DNA of 29,467 nt from a virus. Location: positions 1-29,467 of the IMG/VR virus record IMGVR_UViG_3300017758_000076, one strand, 5' to 3'. The translations under genes were made by a program, and so were the position numbers. Below the pieces are notes generated by a model. That model saw nothing but the letters and a program-made list of their open reading frames with translations. It was not told the origin of the DNA and did not search any database. Shown here piece by piece: positions 19,266-28,400 of this stretch. Positions within the stretch are counted from its first letter, which is position 1. Each line of letters begins with the position of its first letter.

Positions 19266-22148
19266 ATGCCAGGTAAAGGAATTGGATTTAATCCTCTAAA
19301 AAATAAAATTTTAGATACAAAAAAAGCATTTAGCGAATCTGTTGATGTAACTGACATAAAAAATTTTGTAGGATCTGACAGTTTAAAAAATTTAGATCTA
19401 AACAAAACCGAGTTGTTAACAAATGATCTAGCTTCTACAATGATTAATACCAAACCTATGAATTTTAAACATAGTGCCGCAATAAAAAATAAAGTAAATT
19501 CTTTAAAATCACATATGGATCAAGACATAGTTCCAGTAGTGTCAGATGGAATAGAAGCCGCCAAATCAAGTGCATTTAAAACGTTTGAAAATTTTAAAAA
19601 TAAAAGTAGTAGCTCAGTAGAAGATAAAATTACAAGTGTTACAGCTGATGACGGATTTACTCCTGCTAATTTATTAAAATCAGGTGATGCTGTTGCAACA
19701 GAGCAAAGTGCTACAGCCGATGATGGCTTTGTTAATGATCAAGAAAAAACTACACACGACGAAGAATCAGAAGAGGAAATGAATGAAAGACTTTATGAAG
19801 GCTCCGGTGTTGATTACAAATTTAAAAACGTAGTGCCAAACCCTGTACATGAATACGAACATTACACATATGACATCACACTAGCTATAGCTGATTTAAA
19901 ACTTACCAAAAAATGGCTAGACGCAGAAGCAACAACCAAAGCAGGTAGTTTAAAAACCAAAGAGCCCGATACAGATTTAAGTAAAATTTCTGAATCAGAT
20001 CCAAACAGCTTTGATAGTTCTTGGTTTAATTATGGTAAAGATGAACAAACTACATTTATAGTACTTGCCAAATCTGGACAAACAAATACACAGGTTACCA
20101 ATCTTAGTATGAAAAGTATTATTGGTCCCACGCAAGAAACAGGAATGGGAAATACTACTAATTTTAACTTTGAAATTACTCAACCATTGGGGGCTAGTTT
20201 TGTTAAAGATCTGTACAAAGCATCAAAGATACTAGGTATCGAAGAATATAAAGTACACCCTTTTTTTATACAAGTATATCTAAAAGGTAGAAAACAAGAT
20301 GGCAGTATTGGCGACGACGTAGAGATTCCAGGCACAAGACGTGTGTATGCTATGATGATTAACAATATAACTTATAGTGTTAACAGTGGTGGATCAGTAT
20401 ATTCTGTGCAAGGTGTACGTGCTGGAGATTTAGGGTTAGCAGATGATCACCAATTAGTACAAGATATTGAGATTAGTGATATTGTAACATTCGAAGATTT
20501 CCGTAAAGGATTTGAAGTTGCATTAAACAAACAAGAACAACATCATTTAGGTGTTACAAAATATATTTTAGATCAATATGAGGTTGAAGTTGAATGTGAA
20601 AATCCTAGTGAAACAAAAGATATAAAATCATCTCCAATTATCTCAGATCTAGAAATGATTAGTAACGTTGACTTAAAAAACCAAAAACTTCGTTCAGTTA
20701 GTAACTACGATGCTAGTATCAAAGAAATTATTACCAAACACGTGTCAAGGACAGAATTTTTTCAAAAGAAATTAAAAGGTTTCAAAGAAAAAGTAATTGA
20801 TGCAACAGCCGGCGACGAGGATGCTAAGAAAAAATGGGATGATATAGATATGACAAAAAAACTTATCATTATCAAACCATATGCTGTGCCATTTCAGTGG
20901 GATCCGTTGAGACAAGATTATGCTAGAAAATTAAAGTATGTCATTAGAATCAAAAATGTAATGACAAAATTAGCTATCAAAGAAGAACTGTTGGCACCAA
21001 AAGAATACAACCAAAAAAGAGTAAAAACAATGGAAGAGAGAAAAGTGTTAACTAAACACTACAAGTATCATTTCACTGGTGAAAACTTAGATGTATTAAA
21101 TTTTGATATTCAATATAATTTTCAATATGTTTATCCATATGATTCTTTGCAAGGACTATACAACAAGTATCCAAGCCACTTTAGATTATCCAAAGAAGAT
21201 AGAGAATTTATTAATACCAGAAATAAATTAAAAGAAACAATGGACAACTCAGCCACCAAATGGAACGCCTCTACCAAAGATGGAAAAGTAGATCGTGCCG
21301 AAGAACATGATTTATTAGTATCCAGAAGACTATTTTTAGAAAACTATTTGGCAAAAGTTCAATCAGGCGAAGTTGAACCTGATTCAAATACAGCAGAAGC
21401 ATTTCAAAAGTTAGCAGATCAATATAATAATGATACTGCAAAGGTAAACGAAAAATGGAATTATGGTAACCCCAATATTCCACCAGCCGCAAGAATGGTT
21501 GCATTAAAAACTCTTGACGTTTCCAGTTTTGAGTCTAGTATAAAATCTTCAAAATTAAATGAAAAATCCGAAAGTCAATTAAAAGGTCGGAAAATTGCAG
21601 AAACAATCAGTGACGCAGAATGGTTAAAATATGCAAACAGATATCAAGGTGATAGAGCCAAAGCATTTAACATTCAATTTTATGATAGAAAAATTATATC
21701 AGACGGTGTTGATGTTGGATCAGAAGCAGGTGGCGAATACATGGCTTTGTTGGAAAATTCAAAAGCTGGTCCTGTTGAAATGATGAATATCAGTATGGAA
21801 ATCATAGGAGATCCTTATTGGCTAGAAGATGCATTTGGACAAGCTGATAAAAAAGGCTCTGTTGACGATACAATGGTTGACTATTCCAAAGAAACTGCTG
21901 TATTATTTACAAGTCTTGCTCCAGCTGAACCAGATCCAGAAACAGGATTCTTAAAAGCAGGTTCGGAAAGAGCAGATGAATTCATACAAGGAATATATGT
22001 TCCATATGAAGTTGAAAGTACATTTAACAATGGACAGTTTACACAAAGAGTACAAATGATTAGAGACCCACTAACAAACATTGAAGACTTAAAAATAAGA
22101 TCAGAAAATGATTATGCAGAAGTTAAAGAAAATGCGAGGAACAAATAA
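19266..22148 (+). CDS. large baseplate hub-like structural protein (gp27-type position)
   Basis: 960 residues. Residues 1-185 are a polar helical region with a short internal repeat (TADDGF at 126-131 and 150-155) and an acidic run (EESEEEMNE). A beta-rich domain follows from about 190 (VPNPVHEYEHYTYDITLAI, then NFNFEITQPLGASFVKDLYK, and IPGTRRVYAMMINNITYSV). It resembles the hub-domain folds that sit under gp5 (T4 gp27, 391 residues). The rest is alternating helical and beta segments ending in VESTFNNGQFTQRVQMIRDP. Its position directly before gp5, with a TAATG overlap, fits a hub partner of gp5. No enzymatic motif is seen. The gp27 equivalence is an inference, and the protein is much larger than T4 gp27. 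A good Shine-Dalgarno (AAAGGAAAC) precedes the start. Confidence 0.62.
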   Translation: MPGKGIGFNPLKNKILDTKKAFSESVDVTDIKNFVGSDSLKNLDLNKTELLTNDLASTMINTKPMNFKHSAAIKNKVNSLKSHMDQDIVPVVSDGIEAAKSSAFKTFENFKNKSSSSVEDKITSVTADDGFTPANLLKSGDAVATEQSATADDGFVNDQEKTTHDEESEEEMNERLYEGSGVDYKFKNVVPNPVHEYEHYTYDITLAIADLKLTKKWLDAEATTKAGSLKTKEPDTDLSKISESDPNSFDSSWFNYGKDEQTTFIVLAKSGQTNTQVTNLSMKSIIGPTQETGMGNTTNFNFEITQPLGASFVKDLYKASKILGIEEYKVHPFFIQVYLKGRKQDGSIGDDVEIPGTRRVYAMMINNITYSVNSGGSVYSVQGVRAGDLGLADDHQLVQDIEISDIVTFEDFRKGFEVALNKQEQHHLGVTKYILDQYEVEVECENPSETKDIKSSPIISDLEMISNVDLKNQKLRSVSNYDASIKEIITKHVSRTEFFQKKLKGFKEKVIDATAGDEDAKKKWDDIDMTKKLIIIKPYAVPFQWDPLRQDYARKLKYVIRIKNVMTKLAIKEELLAPKEYNQKRVKTMEERKVLTKHYKYHFTGENLDVLNFDIQYNFQYVYPYDSLQGLYNKYPSHFRLSKEDREFINTRNKLKETMDNSATKWNASTKDGKVDRAEEHDLLVSRRLFLENYLAKVQSGEVEPDSNTAEAFQKLADQYNNDTAKVNEKWNYGNPNIPPAARMVALKTLDVSSFESSIKSSKLNEKSESQLKGRKIAETISDAEWLKYANRYQGDRAKAFNIQFYDRKIISDGVDVGSEAGGEYMALLENSKAGPVEMMNISMEIIGDPYWLEDAFGQADKKGSVDDTMVDYSKETAVLFTSLAPAEPDPETGFLKAGSERADEFIQGIYVPYEVESTFNNGQFTQRVQMIRDPLTNIEDLKIRSENDYAEVKENARNK

Positions 22149-23569
22149 TGGCAAGTAAGTCAGATTCGTTTGCAAAAAGTTTTATAAAACGACAAACAGG
22201 AAATTCTAAAAGCACACAATACAACACCATTCAATTAGCAGAAGTAATGGAAAATGTTGATGGTGCTAAAATGGGAAGATTACGTGTACACTTGTTGGGT
22301 TCACAAACTCCGTCGACTGATAAAAATACTTGGAAAACAGTACAATGGGTATCTCCATTTGCGGGTGCCAGTACTCCAAGCACAATGTTAGCAGGTGGTG
22401 ACGCAGAAAACACATACCAAGGAACACAAGATGCTTACGGAATGTGGATGATTCCACCTGATGTTGGTAATATTGTTGCAGTTGCTTTTGTTAATGGCCA
22501 AGATGCTATGGGTTTATGTTTAGGTTGTTTATATCAACCAGGTGTTAACCATATGATTCCTGGTATTGCAAAAGGTACAACATTTAGTGACAATGACGAT
22601 GCACCAATTGTTCCAGTTTCAGAAGTTAATAGAAGATCTGTAGAAGCTCAAAATTTAGATGTGTTTGATGATTCTACAACAGGTCCAAAAGACAAAGTAA
22701 AAAGAGCAACACATACTCCAATGTATAATTCTTTAACCACACAAGGTTTAGAAAATGACAACATTAGAGGATTGACAGATTCATCAGCTAGAAGAGAATC
22801 TCCATCAAAAGTATTTGGATTTTTAACACCAGGTGGTCATCAGTTTGTAATGGATGACGTGAGTCAAAAATATATTAGACTTAGAACAATAGGCGGTGCT
22901 CAATTATTGTTAGATGATTCACATAGTGTGGTTTATGTGATTAACAGCAAAGGCACAGGTTGGGTAGAAATTACTGAATCAGGAAAAATAGAAGTGTTTG
23001 GTGCAGACTCAATATCAATGAGATCAGAAAAAGACATCAACATAAGAGCTGACAGAGATATTAATATTGAATCTGGTAGACACACAAATATCAAAGCCAA
23101 CAACACATTGGATAAAAAAGATGATGAGTTTACACAACCAATCTCAACAAGAAACTTAGGAGATATCAAAGGTAATGTACATATACATAGTGCTGGTAAT
23201 TTTAAAGTAACTGGTGGTAGTGGTATTGATTTAAGCACAACAACATTTAATTCATTTTCTACTTTAGCACAAAAATTTACAACAGACGGTGAATCTCATA
23301 TTAACGCAGGAACGTTCCATCATGAAACTGCTCCTAAGATACACATGAACGGACCAATAGCATTGAAGGCCACAGAAGTTGCTGGCATATCCTTCCAAAC
23401 AGATGCTGATGGCAATTTACTTTATACAAATATATTATCAGAAAGAACTGGAGAATCATTAAACAGTCCGAAATCTACAGAAGCTAAACGTGGATCAATA
23501 TTGACTAGATTTATAACAAGAGAGCCTTATCCAGATCACGAACAATCTAATTTAGAAAATCAATCATAA
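22148..23569 (+). CDS. 5: baseplate central spike/hub protein gp5 without lysozyme domain
   Basis: 473 residues. An N-terminal OB-fold (about 25-140: MENVDGAKMGRLRVHLLGSQ, then GMWMIPPDVGNIVAVAFVNG) is typical of gp5/VgrG spike proteins. A C-terminal beta-prism or helix region (about 260-400) shows short repeats such as SISMRSEKDINIRADRDINI and ESGRHTNIKAN. T4 gp5 (575 residues) has a lysozyme domain between these; here there is no lysozyme catalytic segment. The spike therefore punctures the outer membrane without its own muramidase, as in marine relatives. It is the last gene of this operon; the minus-strand terminator of the facing gene lies just downstream. Confidence 0.85.
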   Translation: MASKSDSFAKSFIKRQTGNSKSTQYNTIQLAEVMENVDGAKMGRLRVHLLGSQTPSTDKNTWKTVQWVSPFAGASTPSTMLAGGDAENTYQGTQDAYGMWMIPPDVGNIVAVAFVNGQDAMGLCLGCLYQPGVNHMIPGIAKGTTFSDNDDAPIVPVSEVNRRSVEAQNLDVFDDSTTGPKDKVKRATHTPMYNSLTTQGLENDNIRGLTDSSARRESPSKVFGFLTPGGHQFVMDDVSQKYIRLRTIGGAQLLLDDSHSVVYVINSKGTGWVEITESGKIEVFGADSISMRSEKDINIRADRDINIESGRHTNIKANNTLDKKDDEFTQPISTRNLGDIKGNVHIHSAGNFKVTGGSGIDLSTTTFNSFSTLAQKFTTDGESHINAGTFHHETAPKIHMNGPIALKATEVAGISFQTDADGNLLYTNILSERTGESLNSPKSTEAKRGSILTRFITREPYPDHEQSNLENQS

Positions 23570-23577
23570 AAAGTCAC

Positions 23578-23606
23578 AAAAAAAGGGCGATAGTTTCCTA
23601 CCGCCC
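23578..23606 (-). terminator. intrinsic terminator of the 104-residue gene
   Basis: On the minus strand, GGGCGGTAG and CTATCGCCC form a 9-bp stem (one G-U) around a GAAA tetraloop, followed directly by seven T. It ends the strongly promoted unit at 23640-23954. In the plus direction no T-tract follows. Confidence 0.9.
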
Positions 23607-23615
23607 AATAATTGC

Positions 23616-23635
23616 AATTAATTTTAAAATTAATT
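23616..23635. repeat. perfect 20-bp AT palindrome
   Basis: AATTAATTTTAAAATTAATT is self-complementary over 20 bases and lies between the stop codon and terminator of the 104-residue gene. It may extend the terminator structure or simply reflect AT richness. Confidence 0.6.
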
Positions 23636-23639
23636 AGTA

Positions 23640-23954
23640 TTACGCCGCTTTGTTAATCAAAGTCTTACCACTTGTTGATAGTAAGTTGATTAAAGCTGAT
23701 TTCGTTGCCATTGCTGTTTGCAATGATCCTGTAGAGATTACTCTAACATTGAAATCATAACCTTTTGACACTAGAGCAGACGTTGGTGTCGCTCTTTTCA
23801 TGTTAAGGTTTTTGTACTTAATAACACCACCGTTTACTTCGCCGTTGTTATCAATTGCGTTTTTGGCTTCTTCTACGAATACGCCAACTTTATTTTTAAC
23901 GTTGCCTTTTACAAACTCTCTTGTATATACAACGTATTGTTTAGTTCTAGCCAT
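23640..23954 (-). CDS. small basic protein from a stand-alone, strongly signalled unit
   Basis: 104 residues from the ATG at 23954 (MARTKQYVVYTREFVKGNVK). It is preceded by an excellent Shine-Dalgarno (GGAGGG). An in-frame ATG at 23999 is upstream of that site and is rejected. The protein is Lys-rich with a predicted mostly beta N-terminal half and a Ser/Leu/Ala-rich helical end (ALINLLSTSGKTLINKAA). No family recognised. It has the strongest complete expression signals in the window: a near-consensus sigma70 promoter, an ideal ribosome site and an intrinsic terminator. It is therefore probably an abundant, early or constitutive protein. It is embedded antisense between two parts of the plus-strand baseplate genes. 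Confidence 0.75.
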   Translation of the reverse strand: MARTKQYVVYTREFVKGNVKNKVGVFVEEAKNAIDNNGEVNGGVIKYKNLNMKRATPTSALVSKGYDFNVRVISTGSLQTAMATKSALINLLSTSGKTLINKAA

Positions 23955-24008
23955 CTTTGTTTTCCCTCCTAACAGGTTTTTTAAGATTAAATTAAACATA
24001 ACAAATAC

Positions 24009-24037
24009 ACTATAGCATTAGAATACAACTATGTCAA
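24009..24037 (-). promoter_or_regulatory. near-consensus sigma70 promoter of the 104-residue gene
   Basis: TTGACA (24037-24032), exactly 17-nt spacer, TATAGT (24014-24009). Only one base differs from the ideal hexamers. The leader is about 50 nt. Confidence 0.88.
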
Positions 24038-24066: not shown

Positions 24067-24366
24067 TTAATAAGTCTCAGGATCTTCAGGATCATATTGG
24101 GTAACATGGTTGGATTTATCCAATTTTATTCCAACTTTTTTATAAACAATTTCTGGATTGGTTTGTAATTCGTAAGTTAGGTTGTCCAATGCACTTTCAA
24201 TTTCATCATACACCACTTCAGCAGTATGGTCATTTAGCTCAACACCAATATTTCGTAATCTGGCATGATACATTTCACTGATTATTTCAATAAGGTGAAT
24301 TCCTTTTTCACGATTCATGTACCACCAGTCTTTGCCAGAGGCAAAGTTCTTTAATTCGTTACTCAT
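24067..24366 (-). CDS. hypothetical protein downstream of clpP
   Basis: 99 residues (MSNELKNFASGKDWWYMNRE, then HLIEIISEMYHARLRNIGV and an acidic second half ending DPEDPETY). It is probably helical. It starts four bases after the ClpP stop on the same strand and is likely co-translated with it; a role linked to the protease, such as an adaptor or substrate, is conceivable but unsupported. No family recognised. Confidence 0.6.
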   Translation of the reverse strand: MSNELKNFASGKDWWYMNREKGIHLIEIISEMYHARLRNIGVELNDHTAEVVYDEIESALDNLTYELQTNPEIVYKKVGIKLDKSNHVTQYDPEDPETY

Positions 24367-24370
24367 GTTA

Positions 24371-24931
24371 TTATAATATATGATCAGCTATGCCAAGGTC
24401 AATCAATTGTTTTGCCGTAAAGTATTGATCACTAGGCGAATCTAATTTTTTCTTAACAGAAGCCATTGTTTTTCCAGTTGCTTCTTTTAATATTCTAAAA
24501 CATCTCTCTTCACAATTATGGTTTTCTTGCATTTGAGATTTCATATCATGCATTTTAGATTCCATTGCATCTGAATGCTGATGATTCATGATACCAGTAT
24601 TTTGTCCAATATATCTTTCGCCATGTTTACCACAAGCAAATATTAAAAAAGCGGCACTCATTACAGCACCAACTCCGATAGTACTAATGTTGTGATAGCT
24701 GTCTCTCATGACATCAATCAACGCAAACGACTCGTATAGATCACCACCTGTTGAGTTGATATACAACTTTAAAGTACGTTTTGGTTTTTTATTTAGGTTA
24801 GCAGTCACTATCCATTTGATAGCACGAGCTATATTCTCTTCGCCAATTTCGCCTGATAGATAATGAATATCGTTATCAAGTAGCAACGACTCAATTTTAT
24901 CATCAGCACTAAAATTTTCAAATTTCTTCAT
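24371..24931 (-). CDS. clpP: ClpP-like serine protease
   Basis: 186 residues with the ClpP fold: INSTGGDLYESFALID (oxyanion/handle region near 58-73), nucleophile S92 in GVGAVMSAAFLIFACG, and H117 in TGIMNHQH. The S-to-H spacing of 25 equals that of bacterial ClpP. The acidic member is D164 or D168 before YFTAKQLIDLGIADHI. The bacterial HQP motif reads HQH here. Phage ClpP proteins are common in marine T4-like phages and may join host Clp ATPases or act alone; prohead maturation is normally by gp21, an unrelated protease. The gene is driven by a consensus late box about 33-40 nt upstream, so expression is expected late. Followed closely by a 99-residue hypothetical gene. Confidence 0.88.
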   Translation of the reverse strand: MKKFENFSADDKIESLLLDNDIHYLSGEIGEENIARAIKWIVTANLNKKPKRTLKLYINSTGGDLYESFALIDVMRDSYHNISTIGVGAVMSAAFLIFACGKHGERYIGQNTGIMNHQHSDAMESKMHDMKSQMQENHNCEERCFRILKEATGKTMASVKKKLDSPSDQYFTAKQLIDLGIADHIL

Positions 24932-24963: not shown

Positions 24964-24971
24964 TATTTATA
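24964..24971 (-). promoter_or_regulatory. late promoter (TATAAATA) of clpP
   Basis: Perfect TATAAATA on the minus strand; start expected near 24958, giving a leader of about 27 nt containing ATAGGCAAC before the ATG. Confidence 0.7.
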
Positions 24972-25033: not shown

Positions 25034-25041
25034 TATAAATA
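25034..25041 (+). promoter_or_regulatory. late promoter (TATAAATA) of gp25-gp6-gp7
   Basis: Perfect TATAAATA; start expected near 25047. A short leader of about 11 nt carries AAGGA-like sequence before the ATG at 25058. Confidence 0.78.
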
Positions 25042-25057
25042 TCAATAAGGATACATA

Positions 25058-25486
25058 ATGGCAACAACATATTCAACATCAACTGCTAATAACACTTCTG
25101 CTACTGTGGCAGAATCTCGTGTCTCTAGTAGAGTTTACAGAGGATTTTCATCAGTAGCAGGGGTAAAATCTAATCAATTATATGATGTTGATTTGATCAA
25201 ACAAGATTTAATTAATCATTTTTACACCAGAAAAGGTGAAAGAGTGATGGATCCGGAATTTGGTTCGATAATATGGGATTTACTTTATGAGCCAATTGAT
25301 GAAAGTACTAAGGAAGATCTAGTTGAAGATTGCAAAACTATAATTGCATCAGATCCAAGAGTACAATTAATAGATTTAATTTTAGACGATGTTGGAAATG
25401 GTATAAGAGTAGACATACAATTGAATGTGTTACCCTTCAACCAACAGGCGTCAATGCAAGTTAACTTTGAAAGAGAAACATTATAA
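25058..25486 (+). CDS. 25: baseplate wedge protein gp25
   Basis: 142 residues (T4 gp25: 132). The gp25/GpW core is clear: DLIKQDLINHFYTRKGERVM, then DPEFGSIIWDLLYEPID and IIASDPRVQLIDLILDD. It holds the wedge core together and contacts the sheath initiator region. The N-terminal 25 residues are Ser/Thr-rich and probably flexible. It is the first gene of the late wedge operon and overlaps the gp6 start (TAATG). Confidence 0.93.
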   Translation: MATTYSTSTANNTSATVAESRVSSRVYRGFSSVAGVKSNQLYDVDLIKQDLINHFYTRKGERVMDPEFGSIIWDLLYEPIDESTKEDLVEDCKTIIASDPRVQLIDLILDDVGNGIRVDIQLNVLPFNQQASMQVNFERETL

Positions 25487-28400
25487 TGAGTCAAATAATT
25501 AGACAGAACAATTTATTCTCAGCAGAAGATTGGAAAACAATTTATAGAAGTTTCTCTCAGGCAAACTTCACAGCATATGATTTTGATACTATCAGATCAG
25601 CTATGCTCAATTACATTCAAGTAAACTATCCAGAAGATTTCAATGACTATATTCAATCAAGTGAATTTATTGCAATAATAGATTTATTATCTTACTTGGG
25701 TCAGTCACTTGCATTTAGAACTGACTTAAATGCTAGAGAAAACTTTTTAGATACAGCTGAAAGAAGAGATTCAATTATTAGATTAGCAAAACTAATCAAT
25801 TACAAAACTAGAAGAAACACTCCAGCAAGAGGTTTATTAAAAATTACAAAAATTAGAACTACTGAACCAATTACAGATTCGGATAGTGCTGATCTTTCTA
25901 ACACAAATGTTGTATGGAATGATCCTAACAATGCAAACTGGTATGACCAATGGTTAACAGTTTGTAATGCATTGTTCAACACCACAAACCAATTTGGTAA
26001 TCCAACCAAATCTGCAACAGTGGGTTCGGTGGCAAGTGAAATTTATGCAACGTCATCAACAAGTGATCAAAGTGTTGTTAAAAATATGCAAACTTCTATC
26101 GATGGAGTATCGACGTCAATTGATATTGTAAAAGCAGATATCCATCCAGATAATTATTTTTATGAAAAAGCACCGGATGCCTCTGAAGCATTTAATCTAA
26201 TTTATAGAAATGACAATCAAGGATTTGGTTCTGTTAACACAGGATTCTTTGTATATTTCAAAGAAGGAACGTTACAGTATCAAGATCATGAATTTGTAAA
26301 TCCGTTACCAAACAGACAAGTTGATATTGATGTTAGTGATATTAACGACATAGATGTATGGGTACAAAAAGTAGGAACAATGGGGACACCATTAGAAAAA
26401 TGGACATCAGTTCCATCACTCAATGGACAAAATACAATTTATAATTCATTAGCTCTAGCAACTAGAAACATATACACAGTTAATTCTAGAAACAATGATA
26501 ATGTTACAGTACAATTCAGTGATGGTAACTTTGGTAATTCACCAAAAGGAACTTTTAGAATTTACTTTAGAAAATCATCTGGTAAAGGACAAGTACTAAA
26601 AGCAAACAGAATTCAAAATGAAGAAGTTTCTTTTAACTATCAAAATTCAGCTGGACAAACATTTACAGCAACAATGTCTTTGACATTGAATTATACTGTT
26701 GATAATTCATCAGCTACAGAAACAAATACAGCAATTAAAAATAATGCACCGCAGGCGTTTTACTCACAGGATAGAATGGTTAATGCTGAAGATTACAGTA
26801 TATTTCCTTTAACACAAAGTACAACGATCCAAAAAATTAAAGCTATGAACAGAACACACATTGGTCATTCACGATATTTAGATGTAAATGATCCAACTGG
26901 TACTGTTAAAAGTGTAAACGTAGTGGGCGAAGATGCCATAGTGTACAAGTCACCGGACTTTACATTAACAACTGAAGAAGTCACCGGCACAGTAGTTGAC
27001 ACTTCTAGTTACAGCTATATTATACAAAACAAATTAGCACCGTTATTGAAAAAAATACAATTACAAAATTTTTATTTTGATGATTACAAGAAATCAGTTG
27101 AAACACATCATGATTCAGATCAATTTGAGATGGATCTAACATCAGTGAACAGAGTATTATGGAAACCTTATCCTACATCAGGTGAGAGCGAAACTGGATA
27201 CTTTTACATTGGTGGTAATGATGCGCCTTCACAAGCAATTACAGTTTACAATAATCCAAACAGTTCGGATGAAAAACTTGGTCTAATTAGACCAGGTACA
27301 AAATTAGAATTTGTTAATGATTATTCATCGCCTACCACTATTAAATGGGCAACCGTAATGAGTGTAAGAAATGATGGATCAGTAATCACAACTGACACAA
27401 CAGGATCAATAACACTAGATACATCAATAACATCAGGATTGAAAGTTAGAAAAATACTTCCTAATTTAAGAACTACATTAACATTAAGTGAAGAATCAGC
27501 AATTCAATCGTTAATGGAATCAGGAGTTAACTTTGGTATTGGTTATCATTACAGAGACACATCAACTAAAACAGAATCATGGTACACTATTGCAGAAGAT
27601 TATCTAGATAAAACATCTGACTTTTCGGTGCAATACAATCAACAGCATGGTGGTTATAAAGCACTAGCAAAAGATTCATCTTGGTTAGTGAAAGCAACAT
27701 ATATTGCTCCAGCCTCTTCGGCAACAACAGCAAAATATGAATTCACTATCAGAGGATTGGATTATGTTTTTGAAAGTTTTGAAGATGTTAGATTTTTCTA
27801 TCACGATGATTATAAAAATATAGATACAAAAACAGGTAGAGCTATTAAAGATACTATTAAAATATTAGACATCAACAAAGATGTTACAATATTATCTAAT
27901 CCTTCAAGTACAACAAAACTTGTTGACCCTGTTACATTTAGTTTATCAAATGCGTTTATAGAACAAGATGGATATGTAGATACTAAAAAAGTTAAAATTA
28001 CAAATATTGATTCCGATGATGATGGTATGCCTGATAATCCAGTAGCACACGAAGATATTATGAGTGATGGTTACTTTGTGTTTTTTGTAAATTATACAGA
28101 TGCTGACGGATATACATATTATAAATTAACAACTGGAGTGACTCAAAGAAGCTCACTAACAGGTAATGGTTTAGAATTTTTAACTTCAGATCAACAGTTT
28201 TACAAAGACAATGTAAAATTGCATAACGGTACTGCATCATCATTTACAAAAAGATATGGTGTAGATGGAACAGCAGTATATAAAGCATACAGAGGTAGAG
28301 CATACAGTACTAGCGAACCATTCTACTTCCAATACAAACACACAGCACCTAGATCACAAAGAGTAGATCCAAGTGTGTCAAACATTGTTGAGTTAACTAT

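Follow-up and report, generated by a model that had tools for sequence, protein, structure and literature searches.

Between gp25 and gp5 of a virus in the IMG/VR collection, the minus strand holds a small gene that seems to bring its own expression signals, which raises the question of whether this arrangement is a genuine unit and what its product might do for the phage. The initial annotation had described a self-contained, high-expression cassette for a 104-residue protein with no recognised family, which it thought might be an early host-takeover factor or a late-acquired 'moron'. In the window (the whole 29,467-nt stretch of DNA analysed here), TTGACA, a 17-nt spacer, TATAGT, GGAGGG, a 104-codon ORF and a terminator do follow one another on the minus strand, each lying exactly where it had first been placed, and their conservation makes the case stronger than originally claimed. 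The features of the locus are as follows.

22148-23569, plus strand: gp5
23578..23606, minus strand: intrinsic terminator, stem-loop 23606-23585 (9 pairs, GAAA loop) followed by T7 at 23584-23578; kept in relatives
23640..23954, minus strand: short open frame, 104 aa, with a pI of about 10 and, by prediction, a GIY-YIG-like fold in which the catalytic Arg/Glu are not conserved
23640..23999, minus strand: long open frame, 119 aa, ATG at 23999, N-terminal extension MFNLILKNLLGGKTK
23969-23964, minus strand: Shine-Dalgarno (SD) sequence GGAGGG, read from the sequence, within the long frame and 9 nt 5′ of the second ATG
24014-24009, minus strand: -10 box TATAGT with TG before it (extended) and a 17-nt spacer, read from the sequence; kept in relatives
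24037-24032, minus strand: -35 box TTGACA, read from the sequence; kept in relatives
24067..24366, minus strand: c7, 99 aa, function not assigned, found in most loci of lineage A (see below)
24371..24931, minus strand: ClpP-type protease, with a T4-type late promoter TATAAATA at 24971-24964
25058-25486, plus strand: gp25

The terminator hairpin is stable (-20.4 kcal/mol, z = -5.15), with none of 200 shuffled sequences being equally good. The promoter, scoring 11/12, shares the top score of the window with sites at 26996 (plus strand) and 17218 (minus strand) and is the only one of the three with an extended TG. Promoter-like sites occur in the window at chance frequency (71 against 66 expected; 55 against 64), so the evidence for this promoter lies in its conservation and not in a single match.

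Promoter and terminator travel with the gene

About 67 IMG/VR contigs, from uncultured marine T4-like viruses of bacteria, carry relatives of the 104-aa protein. Two extra IMG/VR scans, with queries from lineages B and C, added zero new contigs, which indicates that the family is saturated in this collection. Outside it, GTDB genomes contained no member, the search of GenBank phages yielded no relatives and a single chance match (E = 3), and Pfam, PHROGs, PADLOC and PDB sequence searches returned noise only, in full agreement with the first description of a protein without a recognised family.

Of 37 nonredundant relatives, 51% have a promoter of at least 11/12 in the 120 bp upstream of the gene, compared with 1.2% of control windows; for a terminator in the 120 bp downstream, the figures are 89% and 2.4%. 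The promoters of lineage C are weaker (8-10/12), and among the four lineage C members left unscored are some in which a hairpin can be seen with a shorter run of Ts. Thus, the homologue search that the initial annotation had proposed found relatives that keep their own signals and travel with promoter and terminator, rather than homologues embedded in operons without signals. The cassette is a real unit, travelling together with its gene, and its description as self-contained is strongly supported.

The family is also single-copy (one per record searched), its identity between members from the three neighbourhoods is about 60-75%, and gp23 is present in records from two of the lineages, A and C. 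Taken together, this argues that the family is old, and the idea of a late acquisition is not borne out.

A host-type promoter next to late-type neighbours

In G001, a relative of 242 kb, the sequence ATAAATA, the core of the T4 late promoter, is about 25 times enriched in the regions upstream of genes. The window has TATAAATA at a distance of 16 nt upstream of gp25 and of 32 nt upstream of ClpP, as two divergent late-promoter-like sites (25034-25041 and 24964-24971), and none before the cassette gene. The cassette promoter, unlike those of gp25 and ClpP, is of the host sigma-70 type. This difference makes early expression likely, and we predict from it that the gene is expressed early or constitutively by host polymerase, which lends indirect support to the 'early' timing first proposed. 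The same promoter class stands at a gp32-like gene (named by its sequence) and at an RNase P-like RNA in G001. However, some late-class-looking G001 genes, for example portal, also have a sigma-70-like match, so the split between early and late promoters is not clean.

G001 offers further observations. Its RNase P class A-like RNA (L223:14104-14261, that is, 174104-174261; 158 nt, 77.5 bits, E 1e-23, the score lying below the gathering score of 100) has a strong sigma-70-like promoter and is directly followed by a tRNA. A permuted alphaproteobacterial-type tmRNA (152.8 bits) lies at 172221-172515 (L223:12221-12515), and the genome also has a ClpX-like ORF and two ClpP-like ORFs, named by sequence; tmRNA and Clp-like ORFs possibly constitute a phage-encoded set for trans-translation and proteolysis.

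Two conserved candidate starts in one frame

The 104-aa frame is present as first described, yet a conserved in-frame ATG at 23999, opening a frame of 119 aa, had been overlooked. It lies 9 nt past the -10 box and is predicted to be no more than ~3 nt away from the 5′ end of the transcript. All 31 nonredundant relatives of lineages A and C (25 distinct DNAs) have such an ATG, in frame and open, 42-72 nt upstream of the SD-preceded ATG and, in most cases, 8-9 nt past the -10 box. Most other upstream ATGs in these relatives run into stops, and the chance of meeting no stop in shuffled leaders averages 17%. The extension comes in lengths of 14, 15, 17, 18, 19 and 24 residues; parsimony requires at least six length changes, all of them multiples of three, for which the chance is (1/3)^6 = 0.0014. 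The SD and the second ATG are conserved despite different codons (GG in A, KE in C), and lineage B lacks the extension and has the short form only. With both the upstream ATG and the SD-preceded ATG conserved, we infer from the sequences two protein products, one long and leaderless, the other short and started from the SD.

Leaderless mRNAs are common in alphaproteobacteria (PMC4117421), and G001 has the tmRNA of alphaproteobacterial type. The ratio pN/pS in the extension is 0.62-0.85, mildly below 1 and, compared with frame +1, not clearly reduced; the selection signal is therefore weak, pN/pS alone is insufficient as proof that the extension is translated, and it is the frame and stop evidence that carries the case. 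By helical moment, the extension is amphipathic in 13 out of 13 variants tested (shuffle p 0.01-0.13), and it is modelled, at low confidence, as a helix at residues 2-11.

A somewhat unlikely alternative is that the leading ATG serves expression: a 5′-terminal AUG would load ribosomes early and aid the downstream SD, staying in frame to avoid a clash of ribosomes, and only the short form would matter. In E. coli, 5′-terminal AUGs bind 70S ribosomes and alter downstream expression, and mRNAs with a 5′-terminal AUG plus an SD can initiate at both (PMC4965119). An ATG shortly after a strong -10 box recurs in G001, where the gp32-like gene (145563-145682; L222, L235) shares the promoter and the ATGTTTA start, yet its upstream ORF of 30 codons is out of frame and overlaps the gene start. 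What argues against this alternative is that the amphipathic pattern M[FL]xx[IL] is retained through divergent extension sequences and lengths, and that a few unrelated small genes of related phages also have in-frame leaders of this kind (MSIYRKLFGEKK-MAHK, MLNIIKNMFSD..-MAKK).

Other leaders were seen in the same material. Short amphipathic in-frame leaders before an SD-ATG occur at L310:5079-5411, L255:5580, L256:5341 and L260:5347 (among them MIETLIKMLRR..). Out-of-frame leaders also occur before small genes, so the in-frame trait is not universal. In two other relatives, a pattern search for the region upstream of gp32 found nothing readable. We also considered a capsid-targeting role with T4-type L-x-E cleavage and rejected it, because the fitting motif, NLFE-G, is found in a few lineage A members only and is not conserved. 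MARTKQ is also how the histone H3 tail begins, which we take to be a coincidence.

Three unrelated neighbourhoods, each with Clp genes

The gene neighbourhoods of lineages A, B and C are unrelated to one another. In the T4-like lineage A, the order is gp25, ClpP, the 99-aa gene, the cassette gene, often further cargo, and gp5; the cargo before gp5 is often a 77-aa hydrophobic protein, a CspA-like or SpeD-like protein or a radical SAM protein (the last three named by sequence, not by scan). The 99-aa gene c7 has a promoter-like TTGACC-16-TATATT of its own, which ends 8 nt upstream of the c7 ATG. The cassette gene is present in nearly all close loci of lineage A; in L310, the slot reads gp6-gp25-ClpP-other genes-gp5 and the cassette gene is absent, which indicates that the slot holds variable cargo. 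The label 'moron' is accordingly apt for an autonomous gene in a variable slot, and in no further sense. In lineage B, the gene sits beside ClpX, Hsp20 and ClpS, and in lineage C near a ClpA/B-type ATPase, with a winged-helix gene following the cassette gene. On the lineage B contigs L097:5365-7299 and L095:5375-6499, a CHASE2-like/cyclase-like membrane protein, named by sequence only and unusual in a phage, adjoins the gene.

Proximity to Clp genes in all three lineages is suggestive, and the product might be an adaptor or inhibitor of Clp machines, a partner in proteolysis or stress. ClpP is one gene upstream in lineage A, ClpX, Hsp20 and ClpS lie within about 4 kb in lineage B, and the ClpA/B-type ATPase is about 2.5 kb away in lineage C. 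Three neighbourhoods are few, however; 33 long-enough loci have ClpP without the family, and the cassette promoter is of a class unlike that of ClpP. The predicted fold matches ClpS in Foldseek at E about 8 only, and with no Pfam ClpS match we rejected ClpS membership. All in all, we regard a Clp partner as quite unlikely.

A basic core with a predicted GIY-YIG-like fold

Two proteins were modelled with AF2, the short form of a lineage A member (pLDDT 88) and the long form of one from lineage C (pLDDT 84). Both models have the topology b-b-a-a-b-a; the alignments behind them overlap, so the two models are not fully independent. With either model, the named BFVD matches found by Foldseek are almost without exception GIY-YIG or homing endonucleases, the best at E 0.005-0.006, and the best PDB match is the GIY-YIG of UvrC (E 0.31), the E-values for this fold all being above 0.001 and TM 0.4-0.64. 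The scaffold may, on these models, be GIY-YIG-like. At the profile level, hhalign against two GIY-YIG alignments showed no similarity (probability 0.1%), Pfam GIY-YIG gave no match at E <= 5, and PF01541 found nothing in 20 gene-carrying records.

The Tyr of the first strand is kept, within an invariant block QYVxYTREF that holds Y10 and E13, and the Tyr of the second motif (YIG) is Lys in the family. Helix 1 has no Arg that is invariant in the family alignment, and the last helix no Glu that is conserved; for the catalytic residues, the alignments A1 and A3 were matched by eye along the predicted elements. In the absence of profile homology and of a conserved catalytic Arg/Glu, we would not file the family as a GIY-YIG nuclease. 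As for the traits of homing endonucleases, conserved catalytic residues are missing, and the family occupies three neighbourhoods with one copy per genome. The pI is 9.8-10.4 in 29 members.

Could the protein still cut? A re-wired nuclease of GIY-YIG descent, degrading host or competitor DNA early in infection with invariant residues such as E13, R12, K22, K46 or R54 as substitutes, would suit the models and the position of Y10 and E13 inside an invariant block. Against it stand the helix 1 without an invariant Arg, the last helix without a conserved Glu, the Lys in place of the YIG Tyr and the lack of profile similarity, and we hold it to be marginally less probable than a Clp partner. Least likely is superinfection exclusion or anti-defence, in which a membrane-associated GIY-YIG-like domain would block incoming DNA or divert a membrane nuclease of the host, as a decoy for it; SNIPE, for example, is a GIY-YIG nuclease bound to the membrane (PMC13190303). 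The long form resembles a membrane-held GIY-YIG-like domain and the autonomous promoter is typical of morons, but the searches gave no sequence link to any defence model, membrane attachment is a prediction, and the short form has no anchor.

A proposed early protein in two isoforms

The reading we prefer, and advance tentatively as a whole, is that the phage protein family is old and discrete, that its gene forms a transcription unit by itself, and that the product is a nucleic-acid-binding protein without nuclease activity, strongly expressed early in infection and present as two isoforms. Host RNA polymerase would read the gene via its strong sigma-70-type promoter, so that the protein would be made early and abundantly, and transcription would end at the cassette's own terminator. 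In two of the three lineages, the mRNA probably starts at or next to the AUG, giving a long leaderless form with an amphipathic N-terminus, and the internal SD would give the short 104-residue form. The small basic GIY-YIG-like core, without nuclease residues, would bind nucleic acid without cutting, and the amphipathic N-terminus would tether some of the protein to the membrane or to a partner.

What this reading builds on can be seen in the sequences: the conservation of the cassette and of the SD, the in-frame extension and the missing conserved catalytic residues. The GIY-YIG-like fold and the early timing are predicted; charge and fold are what point to DNA or RNA binding, the extension would provide membrane or partner targeting, and the protein may have a role in takeover. 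The initial interpretation is partly supported, strongly for the cassette, indirectly for the early timing and not for a late acquisition, and it missed both the second start and the fold.

The family is novel and built from known kinds of parts: a well-bounded, previously unnamed marine phage protein family with a clear expression logic, whose longer form would be overlooked by gene callers that favour SD sequences. It raises two testable questions: do phages combine leaderless with SD-led initiation to obtain isoforms that differ at the N-terminus, and can a GIY-YIG-like fold act as an early effector when its nuclease residues are missing? The wider proposal, a nuclease fold recast as a non-cutting early effector with two forms per mRNA, is unlikely as it stands; if true, the in-frame tag would be a general phage means of sorting early proteins.

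Comparison with known systems

With the GIY-YIG superfamily (UPF0213/YhbQ, Seg/I-TevI), the family has in common the predicted b-b-a-a-b-a order, the first-strand Tyr, the Gly of the second motif and a small basic domain. It differs in the lack of profile similarity, the Lys for the YIG Tyr and the unconserved catalytic Arg/Glu; it also has no extra DNA-binding domain and one copy per genome.

Like phage morons, the cassette has its own sigma-70 promoter and terminator, runs on the opposite strand to the flanking structural genes and occupies a variable slot. In contrast to morons, it is found in T4-like phages without evidence of lysogeny (viral contigs only), the slot also houses ClpP and other cargo, and the family is old.

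The lambda S gene (holin/antiholin) likewise has two in-frame starts, its products differing by a short N-terminal tail and in their properties. Here, there is no transmembrane segment, the extension has 14-24 residues, and the first start is predicted to be leaderless.

The E. coli mRNAs with a 5′-terminal uAUG and an SD (Beck et al. 2016, PMC4965119) resemble the cassette in combining, on one mRNA, an AUG near the predicted 5′ end with a downstream SD-AUG. In the phage family, however, the frame of the upstream AUG runs, without a stop, into that of the main gene, and this AUG is conserved in two lineages; such a layout would yield N-terminal isoforms and not a separate uORF product.
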